Shown here: piece by piece, positions 21,097 through 35,199 of the stretch
Layout of the letters: each line of letters begins with the position of its first letter
Numbering within the stretch: the stretch's first letter is position 1
Origin: Chloroflexota bacterium
GTDB lineage: Bacteria > Chloroflexota > UBA11872 > VXOZ01
Assembly: GCA_026710945.1 (NCBI GenBank)
Contig: JAPOQA010000065.1
Location: forward strand, 1-42,470
Length of the DNA: 42,470 bases
Direction of reading: 5' to 3'
Notes under the pieces: generated by a model
Told to the model about the DNA's origin: nothing
The model's input: the letters and a program-made list of their open reading frames with translations, nothing else
The model's database searches: none
Program-made: the position numbers and the translations under genes

Positions 21097-21990
21097 TTAC
21101 TTGCCTCGTGGAGGCCATGGATCAGAGAGCCCCAAGACATCGTTTAGCGTCCGCGTCGGTTCTATTTTGTTGCGTGTTCCTGATTCCAATATCCATTCCG
21201 TAGCAAATGGGAACACCCCGCGCTTCATTGGGGCCATTGCCCGGGGATTGTGAACAAATTCCCAGGGTAATTGGGGCCGGCACAAATCCCACACACTGCC
21301 TTCAACATCAAAAGACTTGAAGAGAACTCCTGAAACGTGAACATTCTTAGGCTCCGTCGACGTACCAAAGAAACTCCTAGGGTCTCTGAAGGTATTCCTC
21401 CCGAACAATGCGTGAATGATCGCTTGCTCATGAGAGAACCATCTATGTCCTCCAACAACAAGGGCAAATTGGGAGTCAACGTTTCGATATTTCCAAGCTT
21501 TCTTCTTGGTAGCCTTGCTGAGTTGGATATCGACTCCTAGAACCCCGACTTTAATCGACACGCCTGGCTCACGAGTATCTAAACTGCTGGCATTCTCGCT
21601 CTGCGCGCCGTCAAAGTCTCGGTCAGATTCCTGGACGACTGTGCATTCCACGATAACCGTAGCATCTTGACAAGTCGCTGCATAGTCTGGTGTCTTGCCA
21701 TCGACTTTCGGATCAGCTTCCACTTCGTACCCAATAGCGCAAAGGATTTCGTGAGTTACTAACTCTAATAATGCCCCAGTATGTTGACGATCATCGCTGC
21801 AAAACATACTGCGAATGCTTTTCCTCTTCCTTTCGGGAATCCTTGCAAACCAGATTTCAAGCGTTTCCCGAACGACTTTCACTTTGTCCCAAGCCGAACG
21901 ATTCAGAAAATCGAAATGCGGTTCACCCTTGTCAGGGTAGCCCATGTAAGTACGTTCTTTGGGATCAAAGAGACAGTCCTTAGCAACCAT
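21097..21990 (-). CDS. Orphan protein with possible PD-(D/E)XK nuclease-like core
   Basis: 297-residue protein of unknown function. The segment GALLELVTHEILCAIGYEVEADP..KTPDYAATCQDATVIVECTVV has the order helix with Glu, then PD, then hydrophobic strand with E, as in the PD-(D/E)XK fold. The usual Lys after E-x is Thr here (ECT), so catalysis may be lost or the Lys relocated. The rest includes a basic stretch (LSKATKKKAWKYRN) and FALVVGGHRWFSHEQAIIHALFG. I prefer ATG 21990 (AGAAGG upstream) over TTG 22029. No signal peptide or membrane segment. Base composition is AT-richer than flanking housekeeping genes. It lies 167 bases downstream of the peptidase gene on the same strand. Confidence 0.6.
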   Translation of the reverse strand: MVAKDCLFDPKERTYMGYPDKGEPHFDFLNRSAWDKVKVVRETLEIWFARIPERKRKSIRSMFCSDDRQHTGALLELVTHEILCAIGYEVEADPKVDGKTPDYAATCQDATVIVECTVVQESDRDFDGAQSENASSLDTREPGVSIKVGVLGVDIQLSKATKKKAWKYRNVDSQFALVVGGHRWFSHEQAIIHALFGRNTFRDPRSFFGTSTEPKNVHVSGVLFKSFDVEGSVWDLCRPQLPWEFVHNPRAMAPMKRGVFPFATEWILESGTRNKIEPTRTLNDVLGLSDPWPPRGK

Positions 21991-22156
21991 TGCCCTATCG
22001 CCTTCTGCTTTTTGGCGGCACTCCTTCAATCAGACTCTCATACACTTCCAGAATACCGTAGAGCACCGTCGCTTTTGCCGAGTCCACTGCCAAGCTCTAT
22101 CGCTGTCAACAGTTACCACAACGGAGATTGCGGTAATGCTCGCATGAAGAATCCCC

Positions 22157-27563: not shown

Positions 27564-28115
27564 TTAGGTTGCAGAGTTGTACGCCGCAATAATCTCATCT
27601 ATCCCAACTGCGGCTTCCCTAGCTACGTCCATAGGAATATGCGGCTTTAGCTCATTAACTCTTCGCGCTACCTGCCCAAGGGATCTTGAGTAGTCTTCCT
27701 TCTTCACGTAATAGGCAGTTCCGAGTTGCTCCAGATCTGTCACCGACTTAGAACCAAGGTGCTCTGCAACAAAATCGATCTTTTTGCGATGTTTCTCCAC
27801 GGCGAATGACTGTCGCATTTGTAACTTCTCGCCTATCTCGGTAGTTACAAGGGTGGGTCCGTAAGGTATCGGGTTAGCGCGGATTTGCAATTGATAATCT
27901 GCCCGCATTGCTGTTAGTTCGTCTCGCAAGTCAAACGAAAAGGGACCATGCTTGTAGAGGATAAAGTCAAAACCAAGTGGCACGCGAGTGAGTTCTTGTA
28001 GAAGATAGACGGCTTTCTGCAAGTGAGTTTCGCCGCACCAACTTCCAGCGGTTTTCAGTTCGTCTGCAAGCGACAGCACTATTGCGTTTCTTCCAAGTCT
28101 ACTCAATTGACTCAT
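27564..28115 (-). CDS. YwgA/Panacea (SocA/DUF4065)-like partner of the HD gene
   Basis: 183-residue protein. The N-terminal half, with GETHLQKAVYLLQELTRVPLG (about residues 32-52), FDFILYKHGPFSFDLRDEL and TTEIGEKL, matches the pattern of YwgA and the Panacea/SocA antitoxin fold (LQKxxYLL..Y.HGPFS..L). The C-terminal half is helical. Panacea domains serve as antitoxins in several toxin-antitoxin systems and YwgA neighbours the HD protein YwfO in Bacillus (family knowledge). ATG 28115 lies behind AAAGGAG at a 7-base spacing. The gene overlaps the end of the HD gene by 17 bases, so the two are translationally coupled. AT-richer than the housekeeping genes around it. Function is inference. Confidence 0.72.
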   Translation of the reverse strand: MSQLSRLGRNAIVLSLADELKTAGSWCGETHLQKAVYLLQELTRVPLGFDFILYKHGPFSFDLRDELTAMRADYQLQIRANPIPYGPTLVTTEIGEKLQMRQSFAVEKHRKKIDFVAEHLGSKSVTDLEQLGTAYYVKKEDYSRSLGQVARRVNELKPHIPMDVAREAAVGIDEIIAAYNSAT

Positions 28116-29460
28116 GGCTCTGCTCCTTTGCACTTTCTATGATATCCTTCCGATTTTCCTTAAGCCACTCGCGAGCACTATCTTGGATATTAGGGTCCAC
28201 AAATACGTAGTCAATTGCAGCTTCAGGAAGGTTCTCAAGAATTTGTGATAGCGAAACTGACGATACGATCCTGCCGTCCCTACCCAATACAGGAAACTCG
28301 ACAATCCCGCCACCTTTGCTATCCTGGTCTAGGCGAACATTCTCGGAGCCGAACTCTTCGCATGCGGCCCTATGAATTGCTGTTGCCGCGTCAATACCTT
28401 CACTAATGTCGTCAGGATTTCGTTGGTAGAGTTCTCTAAAGTGCTGACGTCGGATAATCCGATTTGGCAACACGCCTAGGTCGTTACTTTCTAATGATGC
28501 TTGGCGAAGAGCATGCATTACTTCTACGTCCGTCAATTTGAGCATGTCCTCTACTGAGATGGAGAACTGGCCACCAGGCAGCCATCGCTTAAGGAACTCT
28601 CTTAGATGGATGTCATAGATTCGTCGTACACGATGAAAATACACTTGTGAAAACATCGCGTATCTAGCAAGCAGCAACGCTTCTACGGAATGAAGACCGC
28701 CTTCCTCGACGCCCAAAGTAGGTTCACTTGACTGAATCTCAGTCTCTTCCGGCGCTGGAGGGAGAATCCGAAGCGTATCTATCAGTCTATAGAGGTCAAA
28801 TCTACCGTATGCAACACCTGTATGATGGGAATCACGCAAGAGGTAGTCCATTCTGTCAGCGCCGAAAGCGTCTCCGACAATGATTTCTGCCAGAATGGCT
28901 TCCCAATCCGAAAAGGCCGAATCGATGAATTTGGCGCCTTCTTTGGCGCCAACGGCGAGTTTGGCAATATCATCCGTCCGCAAAGGCGGTGTTAGTTCTT
29001 GCCAGATGTCACGCATCTCTTGACTGCGAATGAACTCCACGGTTAGTCGTTCGTGGTTCCAGCCGTCCGGGAGCAACCCCTCCTTCTCGCCTGCATGAGA
29101 GAACGGCAGGTGTCCCAAGTCATGACAAAGGGCCGCTGCACGAACAACCTTGCGCCAGTACCGGAGTTCATCAGAATGTCTTAGTTCCGGCATTACTCTC
29201 CTGACCGCATCGTTCACGTTCTCCGGCTCTGTTACCACTCTGAATATTCTATCCGCCAGTTCCATCACACCTAGCGCATGTTCGAACCGCTTGTGGGTTG
29301 CACCCGGGTACACGAGGTGTGTCAATGCCAACTGGTTGACATGACGGAGACGCTGGAAGGGGCGTGAGTCAATTATCTTGCGTTCGTGAGAATCGAACTG
29401 AATGAACGTGTGAATAGCGTCTCGGATTTCGTGTGTATTCTTCACCATTAAAGTATTCAC
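28099..29460 (-). CDS. HD-domain phosphohydrolase (SAMHD1/YwfO-like)
   Basis: 453-residue HD-superfamily protein. Metal ligands are H61 (RFEHALGVMELA), H113-D114 (AALCHDLGHLPFSH) and D202 (GADRMDYLLRDSHHTG), in the same order and context as the SAMHD1 and YwfO dNTP triphosphohydrolases. RPFQRLRHVNQLALTHLVYPGATHKR at residues 33-58 is the usual N-terminal signature. The C-terminal ~200 residues are less familiar. Starts possible at GTG 29460, ATG 29448 or GTG 29445; none has a clear Shine-Dalgarno. A promoter with a palindrome in its spacer lies 36 bases upstream. dNTP or other nucleotide hydrolysis is predicted; coupling with a Panacea-like gene suggests a regulated or defence role. Confidence 0.85.
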   Translation of the reverse strand: MNTLMVKNTHEIRDAIHTFIQFDSHERKIIDSRPFQRLRHVNQLALTHLVYPGATHKRFEHALGVMELADRIFRVVTEPENVNDAVRRVMPELRHSDELRYWRKVVRAAALCHDLGHLPFSHAGEKEGLLPDGWNHERLTVEFIRSQEMRDIWQELTPPLRTDDIAKLAVGAKEGAKFIDSAFSDWEAILAEIIVGDAFGADRMDYLLRDSHHTGVAYGRFDLYRLIDTLRILPPAPEETEIQSSEPTLGVEEGGLHSVEALLLARYAMFSQVYFHRVRRIYDIHLREFLKRWLPGGQFSISVEDMLKLTDVEVMHALRQASLESNDLGVLPNRIIRRQHFRELYQRNPDDISEGIDAATAIHRAACEEFGSENVRLDQDSKGGGIVEFPVLGRDGRIVSSVSLSQILENLPEAAIDYVFVDPNIQDSAREWLKENRKDIIESAKEQSHESIE

Positions 29461-33275: not shown

Positions 33276-33284
33276 GACAGAAGG

Positions 33285-33490
33285 CTTTCCGCGCACGTAC
33301 CGCCACGGACGTATGCGCTGCACTTCAAGATCGCTGTCGGCGAAACCGCCTCGACAGACGAGCAAATGAGATAAGAGCGTGGTAGACGTCAGCGCCGCCA
33401 GCGCTTTGGCCAACTCCAGCGGGTAGCGCTACCGCCACCCACCACGCCGTCGGCCCCGAAGAACGCCGGTGAAACTTGGAAAACCTTCAT
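33285..33490 (-). pseudogene. Truncated, frameshifted glycosyltransferase N-terminus
   Basis: On the minus strand ATG 33490 begins MKVFQVSPAFFGADGVVGGG, then a frameshift near 33428 moves the reading to RYPLELAKALAALTSTTLLS and ..SDLEVQRIRPWRYVRGKP. The joined text reads like the start of a GT4-type glycosyltransferase (short strand, Gly-rich turn, then RYPLELAKALA helix). It stops being homologous at about 33285, where the DMT transporter gene begins on the other strand. I take it as a remnant cut off by rearrangement. The rest of the 33276-33670 gap shows only upstream signals of the next gene. Confidence 0.5.
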
Positions 33491-33626
33491 GGTGCCGTGG
33501 AAACAGATAGGTGGTACACTAAATGTCCCATTCAGCCTTTTAACAGGTTACGTGAGCAGAAAAGCTCGGCCAATATCAGGCATAGTACTACGAATCTAGT
33601 ATCATGGAAGTAGCACCAGAGAGTCA

Positions 33627-33643
33627 TATGTCAATAAGACATA
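33627..33643. promoter_or_regulatory. Inverted repeat upstream of the Ntn-hydrolase gene
   Basis: TATGTC (33627-33632), 5-base AATAA spacer, GACATA (33638-33643). It ends 27 bases before the ATG at 33671 in an AT-rich leader, so it could be an operator or an mRNA hairpin. A weak extended -10 TGGTACACT lies at 33512-33520. Confidence 0.4.
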
Positions 33644-33670
33644 AATGGGAATTGCACGCGAGGCGACAGA

Positions 33671-35092
33671 ATGACCGCAGAAATCGCGATCATGAATAAA
33701 GAGGCAGTTGCATTGGCTGCCGACAGCGCTGTAACGATTTCTCAAGGTAGTGCTCCAAAGATATTTGCATCTGCGAATAAGCTATTCGCGCTTTCCCTTC
33801 ACCATCCGATTGGAATTATGGTCTATGAGAATGCAAGCTTCATGGGAATTCCGTGGGAAACGGTCATTAAACTCTATCGAGCAAGGTTAGGGAATACCGC
33901 CTACCCCACCGTAAAAGACTACGCGGATGACTTCATAGGCTTCCTCCAAAGTGAGTCTACATTGGCGCCAGTTGAGAGCCAAGAGGTTTATGTCGCTCGG
34001 TTATTGGCTTCTCATTTTGCGCGTGTGGCCAAGCAGATTGAGGACCAGGTCGAAATTGAGATTCAGGATGAGTCTATAAGAATCTATGAAGAATTCGGGC
34101 GTTTATATCGTGAAGTGAAGGAAGACGTCTTAGCGTCCAACTATCAACGTTGGCGGAGAGCTGACTATGCTGTGGACATGGATTCTGCTACTGCGAACGC
34201 ACTGAGAAAGCGGTATCGAGCAGTAATTAGAGAAACGAAGGGAGAGTATTTTGGCTCCGACTTGACACCTAAAACGTCAAGAATGGTTACGTTGCTTGCG
34301 GGCTGTGTATTGTCAAAATATGATGAGCAGGCCCTATTGCTCGAAAGCTCAGGCGTTGTTATTTCTGGCTTTGGTGAAGAGCAACTCTTTCCGTCCCTTA
34401 GTGCATTAATTGTCTCTGGAATCTCTGATGATCGGCTCAAGTATCGACATTTCGAGGGAAAGTCTTCGGACATTGGTATTCACAATGGGTCAGCGATCAT
34501 CCCCTTTGCACAGGAAGAAATGGTTCAGTCATTCATGGTGGGAATTGACCCTGAATTTAGGGGTGTGTTGTTGGGTGCAGTGAATGGGATGCTGAAGGAC
34601 TATCCAACTACCATTATTGACAATGTAAAGGGAATCACTGAGCAAGAGAGGAAGCGTCTCAGGGATGACACTGCAAAGGCATCCCTGAGGATATTCGAAG
34701 AATTCCTTGGAAAGCTTAATGACATTGGTCGCACAACGTTTATTGCACCCGTGATAAACACCGTGGCGAGCATGCCCAAAAGCGAGTTGCCGGCGGTAGC
34801 GGAAGCTCTGGTAAACCTCCAATCGTTCAAACGTAGGGTATCGCAAGAACAAGAGACAGTGGGTGGGCCGATTGACGTGATGCTAATATCAAAAGGGGAT
34901 GGCCTAGTTTGGATAAAACGCAAGCATTACTTTGAGCGCGATCTCAATCCGCATTACTTCCAATCAGTTTCTAAGGAGGAGCGCAGTGGCAAGAGAGCTG
35001 GGCAACAAAGGGACACCCGCGCGCAGAATGGGGGAGAGAGAGAACAGCGTGACACCCTTCACGGTGAAGGAGAGAAGCGAAGCAAAAGCTGA
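33671..35092 (+). CDS. Proteasome-like Ntn-hydrolase family protein
   Basis: 473-residue protein of unknown role. After the initiator Met the chain starts TAEIAIMNKEAVALAADSAVTI. This matches the start of proteasome beta, HslV and Anbu subunits: Thr1 nucleophile, two strands and an Asp near position 17. The C-terminal IDVMLISKGDGLVWIKRKHYF fits a late strand of the same fold. Between them about 330 mostly helical residues are inserted or appended, far longer than HslV (about 175 residues). The last ~36 residues (EERSGKRAGQQRDTR..) overlap the next gene in another frame and look unrelated to the body. ATG 33671 follows GAGG. Clearly AT-richer than flanking genes. Autoproteolysis or peptidase activity is inference. 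Confidence 0.7.
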   Translation: MTAEIAIMNKEAVALAADSAVTISQGSAPKIFASANKLFALSLHHPIGIMVYENASFMGIPWETVIKLYRARLGNTAYPTVKDYADDFIGFLQSESTLAPVESQEVYVARLLASHFARVAKQIEDQVEIEIQDESIRIYEEFGRLYREVKEDVLASNYQRWRRADYAVDMDSATANALRKRYRAVIRETKGEYFGSDLTPKTSRMVTLLAGCVLSKYDEQALLLESSGVVISGFGEEQLFPSLSALIVSGISDDRLKYRHFEGKSSDIGIHNGSAIIPFAQEEMVQSFMVGIDPEFRGVLLGAVNGMLKDYPTTIIDNVKGITEQERKRLRDDTAKASLRIFEEFLGKLNDIGRTTFIAPVINTVASMPKSELPAVAEALVNLQSFKRRVSQEQETVGGPIDVMLISKGDGLVWIKRKHYFERDLNPHYFQSVSKEERSGKRAGQQRDTRAQNGGEREQRDTLHGEGEKRSKS

Positions 35093-35183
35093 GGATCCAA
35101 ATGCACTCGGCGAACAGATAGCAGAGGAACTGATAGCAATCGCTAAGCAGATCTTGCCCCCTGCTACAACAGAAAGTCAATAG
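34986..35183 (+). CDS. Small protein overlapping the Ntn-hydrolase gene
   Basis: 65-residue hydrophilic protein (MARELGNKGTPARRMGEREN..), with a basic N-terminal half and an amphipathic helix near the end (GEQIAEELIAIAKQIL). GTG 34986 has a perfect AGGAGG (34974-34979) 6 bases upstream, one of the strongest ribosome sites in the window. This supports real translation even though the first 107 bases lie inside the upstream gene. The overlap implies coupled expression with the Ntn-hydrolase. No family recognised; it could be a substrate, inhibitor or chaperone of its partner. Convergent with fabF, 16 bases away. Confidence 0.65.
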   Translation: MARELGNKGTPARRMGERENSVTPFTVKERSEAKAEDPNALGEQIAEELIAIAKQILPPATTESQ

Positions 35184-35199
35184 GTAGCGGATCTCCTTA

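Follow-up and report, generated by a model that had tools for sequence, protein, structure and literature searches.

The proteasome homologue PMI-4 ("Proteasome homolog with Multiple Insertions") was defined from sequence only by Fuchs, Alva and Lupas in 2021 as a large family, with HDY66466.1 as the cluster representative, for which neither experimental data nor a suggestive genomic context were available (PMC8665760; alignment deposited as Mendeley t48yhff7hs). Connectase, a protein ligase of some methanogens, is likewise a proteasome homologue; it has an S3/S4 insertion, is without H1/H2 and recognizes a specific partner protein (PMC8665760).

Here, we analyzed a locus within a stretch of 42,470 nucleotides (referred to as the window), which is part of the 3.5-Mb draft genome of a Chloroflexota bacterium. 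In this locus, the gene for a 473-aa enzyme with the N-terminus MTAEIAIMNKEAVALAADSAVT overlaps at its 3' end by 107 nt, and in a different frame, with a small gene; together, the two constitute what we refer to as the module. A sequence-only reading of this DNA had described the larger protein as an uncharacterized protein of the proteasome/HslV/Anbu layout with a Thr nucleophile and without an HslU-like ATPase beside it, and the two genes as an AT-rich, self-contained module of the defense type. The features of the locus are as follows, with coordinates in the window, strand and supporting evidence.

33671..35092 (+): proteasome-beta-like Ntn-hydrolase gene, 473 aa, without propeptide (phrog_5990 match, fold, conservation)
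33674..33676 (+): codon of the predicted nucleophile Thr2 (conservation and structural alignment)
33965..34315 (+): all-helical insertion 1, residues 99-215, after H1/H2 (DSSP of the model, regional conservation)
34550..34771 (+): helical insertion 2, residues 294-367, H3/H4 region (model, regional conservation)
34772..34948 (+): best conserved part of the enzyme, residues 368-426 (GGPIDVxxISKGDGxxWIKRKHYF)
34973..34979 (+): Shine-Dalgarno sequence AAGGAGG of the small gene, within the enzyme gene (sequence)
34986..35183 (+): small partner gene, 65 aa, GTG start (profile matches, dN/dS, same-genus comparison)
35097..35153 (+): conserved C-terminal helix of the small protein, residues 38-56 (alignment, structure model)
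33493..35199 (no strand): unit absent from the same-genus genome G002 (flanks match at 80-84%)
33627..33643 (no strand): inverted repeat TATGTC-N5-GACATA with the spacer AATAA (sequence; same-genus orthologues without it)

Fold and family of the enzyme

Neither the enzyme nor the small protein has a significant match in Pfam, NCBIfam or PADLOC, and the best family for the enzyme is phrog_5990 (function unknown; E 1e-113). A direct sequence search of the PDB with the enzyme returned no relative, and a profile search of the PDB gave weak proteasome matches only (E 0.035, residues 388-405); cullin matches on the helical insertion were rejected as chance-like, though they ranked above the proteasome matches in the profile search. 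An AlphaFold model of the enzyme was built from the homologue alignment (pLDDT 87, pTM 0.82). Using Foldseek, this model matched 20S proteasome beta subunits (E 3e-5), with Anbu chains also among the matches, and in a VIA-align superposition on the beta subunit of T. acidophilum 185 residues were aligned (Z 18.0, rmsd 3.5), with residue 2 of the model pairing with beta residue 1 at the start of the aligned range. In the model, the enzyme thus has the proteasome-beta fold (alpha-beta-beta-alpha) with Thr2 on the position of the catalytic Thr1. Structure prediction and fold search, which the sequence-only reading had proposed as a check, in this way yielded the Ntn sandwich it had anticipated.

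A scan of genome contigs identified 230 relatives of the enzyme, the best 80 of which were kept; conservation was analyzed in an alignment of 52 homologues. Met1, Thr2, Asp18 and Lys37 are invariant in all 52, and invariant columns are confined to residues 1-84, 228-281 and 377-426, with none in the two helical insertions. Asp18 and Lys37, as assigned by motif, are found where the triad residues Asp17 and Lys33 would fit, and the position of the oxyanion glycine, also assigned by motif, is occupied by Glu53 in the enzyme of the window and by Gly in 41 of the 52 homologues. The mean frequency of the majority residue is 0.31 in the insertion at residues 99-215 versus 0.67 and 0.82 in the ends of the core, with residues 368-426 accounting for the value of 0.82. 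No homologue in the alignment has a propeptide. The enzyme is a putative peptidase or ligase.

The enzyme shares the fold (Z about 18 to 20S beta) and the N-terminal Thr with 20S proteasome beta subunits, HslV and Anbu but differs from them in being about twice as long, in its helical insertions, which may prevent ring formation, and in the lack of a propeptide. Unlike the situation for HslV, no gene for HslU or another AAA+ ATPase adjoins the enzyme gene in the window, as the sequence-only reading had stated. Like connectase, the enzyme is a proteasome homologue and may recognize a specific partner protein, whereas ligation, as carried out by connectase in some methanogens, is hypothetical for the enzyme of the window.

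The enzyme most closely resembles PMI-4: (i) it has the proteasome-beta core and N-terminal Thr without a propeptide and belongs to a large family, (ii) its insertions are after H1/H2 (helices at residues 101-215 of the model) and between H3/H4 (residues 294-367), although PMI-3 also has both, and (iii) relatives occur in many bacterial phyla, in archaea (Euryarchaeota in PMI-4) and in phages. Because the model and the distribution fit the description of PMI-4, the enzyme family has very probably been described before, a match made to the published description rather than to the cluster sequences (PMC8665760). The term "uncharacterized" therefore holds with respect to experiments, while the family itself seems to have been described already as part of the PMI group. 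What distinguishes our locus is a conserved small partner gene, as opposed to the lack of a suggestive genomic context reported for PMI-4. The same genome also encodes a shorter paralogue of 320-327 aa (contig G000:C59; L002 1459-2442, - strand) that is without the first helical insertion (residues 99-215) and in which AAAGGAGG is followed by a 52-aa partner ORF. By description only, we file this paralogue with PMI-2, i.e. without the H1/H2 insertion and with the rest kept, from which it differs in the small partner ORF behind it (PMC8665760).

The small partner gene

The sequence-only reading had noted a 65-residue gene with a perfect AGGAGG starting inside the 3' end of the enzyme gene, and both this ORF and its Shine-Dalgarno sequence are as described. 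A small ORF begins no further than tens of nucleotides from the enzyme stop codon in nearly all homologues. When ORFs of 40-100 aa starting no more than 45 nt from the stop codon of the enzyme gene were counted, such an ORF was found in 66 of 69 genome loci versus 112 of 396 control genes (28%) from the same loci, and in 67 of 76 viral loci, a set that holds many near-copies. In seven of the nine viral exceptions (L156, L157, L160, L173, L174, L176 and L178) an ORF of 34-37 aa lies 10-20 nt after the stop codon, and in six of these seven it is followed by a GC-rich stem and then a long T-run; in L178 the T-run is short. Of the remaining two, L120 is apparently without a small ORF, and in L112 the frame may overlap the enzyme tail. 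In total, three of the 69 genome loci and one viral locus are apparently without the small gene. None of three findings that the sequence-only reading had listed as speaking against it was obtained, i.e. lack of an Ntn sandwich, lack of conservation of Thr2, and absence of the small gene from all homologous loci. An E. coli prophage with the enzyme and an ORF of 34 aa is found in NZ_CP123310.1. In E. coli, the RefSeq start of the enzyme precedes the conserved Met-Thr by about 33 codons (L180 8902-10305; L182 8905-10305), and the 34-aa ORF downstream of the enzyme is not listed as a gene in the RefSeq table for these two loci.

Because the small proteins in the first profile had been picked by position, a fair test was provided by held-out profiles, for which half of the small proteins served as the training set and which were searched against 20,542 six-frame segments. 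These profiles matched 37-38 loci, including the window, which had been left out of training, and wherever the position of the enzyme was listed, the matches were at its 3' end and on the same strand. Among same-genus pairs, the dN/dS of the small gene is about 0.06-0.55, values that are rough because dS is high in several pairs. The small gene is under selection at the protein level.

The small protein is strongly divergent across clades, varies in length from 34 to 79 aa and is most constant in its C-terminal helix. In the clade around the window, a D-P/A motif and a YFP motif recur; a motif resembling a cleavage site and kept in all clades was not found. The model of the small protein has a pLDDT of 65 and is confident for one helix only, and the family libraries and the PDB contain no relative. 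In the open-access literature searched, we found nothing on phrog_5990 or on proteasome-like anti-phage defense, and the conserved small partner, unreported there, appears to be new.

Distribution and genomic context of the module

Among the best 80 of the 230 relatives in the genome-contig scan, the enzyme is present in archaea and many bacterial phyla. Within the phylum, 10 of 400 genomes have the module, five of these being from the same genus; in E. coli, two types of it occur, in 22 of 5,426 genomes altogether. Homologues are also found on plasmids, in phages and satellite phages, and on 134 viral contigs. The enzyme tree mixes archaea with bacterial phyla, e.g. a Planctomycetota row is within an archaeal group, a pattern that by itself is no proof of transfer. 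The module is sporadic, mobile and horizontally spread.

Within the genus, the enzyme gene and the small gene adjoin fabF in three species. G002 retains fabF and the flank at 33284-33492 (80-84% identity), whereas 33493-35199 is missing, and this genome contains no significant trace of the module. Thus, the two genes are gained and lost as one unit within the genus; together with the gene neighborhoods, their joint absence in G002 bears out the idea of a self-contained unit. For the enzyme, identity to the G001 and G003 sequences is 57-58%, as opposed to 88-90% for FabF. In G045, another genome of the phylum (L006 and L009; G045:C1:601714-604071), the homologue is split between residues 254 and 265 by about 1.1 kb, perhaps an inserted element.

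The AT-richness pointed out from sequence is evident as a GC content of 0.47 at 34001-35000 compared to about 0.60-0.63 over most of the window. The inverted repeat, which had also been pointed out, is present upstream of the enzyme gene, but it was rejected as a conserved element and is probably due to chance because it is missing upstream of two same-genus orthologues. An Rfam search found no family, and a promoter search found no convincing promoter. Elsewhere in the window, a low-GC overlapping pair at 27564-29460 (- strand), 4 kb from the enzyme gene, encodes two proteins, one Panacea/DarG-like (189 aa) and the other dGTPase-like with an HD domain (453 aa), and may be another accessory or defense-type module; a 310-aa ORF at 21097-22029 (- strand) has a GC content of 0.49, compared to about 0.60 in its surroundings.

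In E. coli type 1, the enzyme gene is in a prophage directly after a gene for a CI-like repressor, on the same strand and before recE/recT; in type 2, it is on the other strand of a prophage, between genes for a methyltransferase and the Q antiterminator. In at least 7 of 35 non-redundant prophage loci, the gene just upstream matches a repressor family and is on the same strand. In a satellite phage, the module makes up the last two genes, and some phage copies are in late or structural regions. Chromosomal neighbors are mostly ordinary housekeeping genes with some restriction and other defense genes, known defense genes being a minority in a tally of the top families listed that has no matched control. 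On a Mesorhizobium plasmid (L098), the homologue is near genes for a multiubiquitin-domain protein and a ThiF-family adenylyltransferase.

The rexAB genes of lambda are prophage exclusion genes just downstream of the repressor gene, a position that, as shown by annotation, the module shares in some prophages. Similarly, the module resembles toxin-antitoxin systems in being two genes side by side that are mobile and sporadic, whereas toxicity and neutralization are hypothetical here. We know of no sequence relation between the module and rexAB or toxin-antitoxin pairs. Because of the locations in prophages, satellite phages and plasmids and the rexAB-like position, an anti-phage defense role of the module is suggested by analogy. 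The defense type proposed from sequence is in line with the mobile locations but less so with the low share of known defense genes nearby; for the small protein as a "guide" we found no support.

A model for the function of the module

Combining these data, we tentatively favor, at slightly less than an even chance, that the module is a mobile peptidase under the control of its cognate small protein, probably for phage exclusion. In its stronger form, in which a proteasome homologue is a stand-alone anti-phage effector checked by a fast-diversifying small protein in a toxin-antitoxin-like defense system, we regard this as possible, with a lower degree of confidence. In this model, (i) Met1 would be removed to leave Thr2 as the nucleophile, (ii) translational coupling would deliver the small protein onto the nascent enzyme, (iii) the C-terminal helix of the small protein would dock on the conserved core and, like an antitoxin, keep the enzyme inactive, (iv) a trigger, e.g. 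phage infection, would disturb the complex and free the enzyme, and (v) the freed enzyme would cut a small number of essential proteins of the host or the phage, resulting in phage exclusion or abortive infection. The enzyme would not require an ATPase, and its variable helical insertions would either choose the targets or detect the trigger.

The sporadic mobile spread, the fast change of the enzyme and the position after the repressor in prophages argue for exclusion. Arguing against it are the housekeeping neighbors in most chromosomes, the low share of defense genes and the phage copies in late or structural regions, which are perhaps unexpressed in the lysogen. Also counting against our preferred reading are Glu53 at what by motif is the usual oxyanion glycine position, the four loci apparently lacking the small gene, and the toxin-first order, which is less usual in toxin-antitoxin pairs.

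Alternatively, the small protein could act in trans as an assembly factor or activator, and the enzyme could be a quality-control peptidase without a defense role. Such a role would be equivalent to that of the propeptides of proteasomes and HslV or the tails of HslU, and the lack of a propeptide in any homologue, the translation of the small gene directly after the enzyme, the conserved C-terminal helix and the mostly ordinary neighbors would all fit; nevertheless, housekeeping proteolysis would not be expected to show so sporadic and mobile a distribution or such fast divergence, and the partners of different clades differ widely in sequence and length, making this alternative unlikely, if the best of those considered. 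It is similarly doubtful that the small protein is a dedicated substrate, from which a peptide is released by cleavage or which is ligated to another protein in the manner of connectase. Connectase is an example of a proteasome homologue that is a specific ligase (PMC8665760), the D-P/A and YFP motifs recur in the clade around the window, and the small protein is confidently predicted for one helix only; however, no cleavage-like motif is common to all clades, a helix N-cap is a simple explanation of the D-P segment, and in the model no long insertion is seen between the early strands, the site of the connectase insertion. We consider it improbable that the module serves phages and satellites in lysogeny control, counter-defense or interference with helper phages, with the chromosomal copies being remnants: many prophage copies are beside genes for repressors, Q antiterminators or lysis and one copy is at the end of a satellite phage, but the module also occurs widely next to ordinary genes in the chromosomes of archaea and bacteria, and three species of the genus retain it at the same site. 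Finally, we regard it as highly unlikely that the small ORF is a chance frame unrelated to the enzyme: although some ORF of 40-100 aa is close behind 28% of the control genes, this reading is contradicted by the held-out profile matches at the enzyme 3' end, a dN/dS below 1 and strong ribosome-binding sites.

Our data suggest that the module is a self-contained and possibly anti-phage two-gene unit. For PMI-4, a family previously without genomic clues, the conserved partner gene provides a clue to function and makes the function of the enzyme directly testable. If the phage exclusion model is correct, proteasome-type peptidases would join the known effectors of phage defense.
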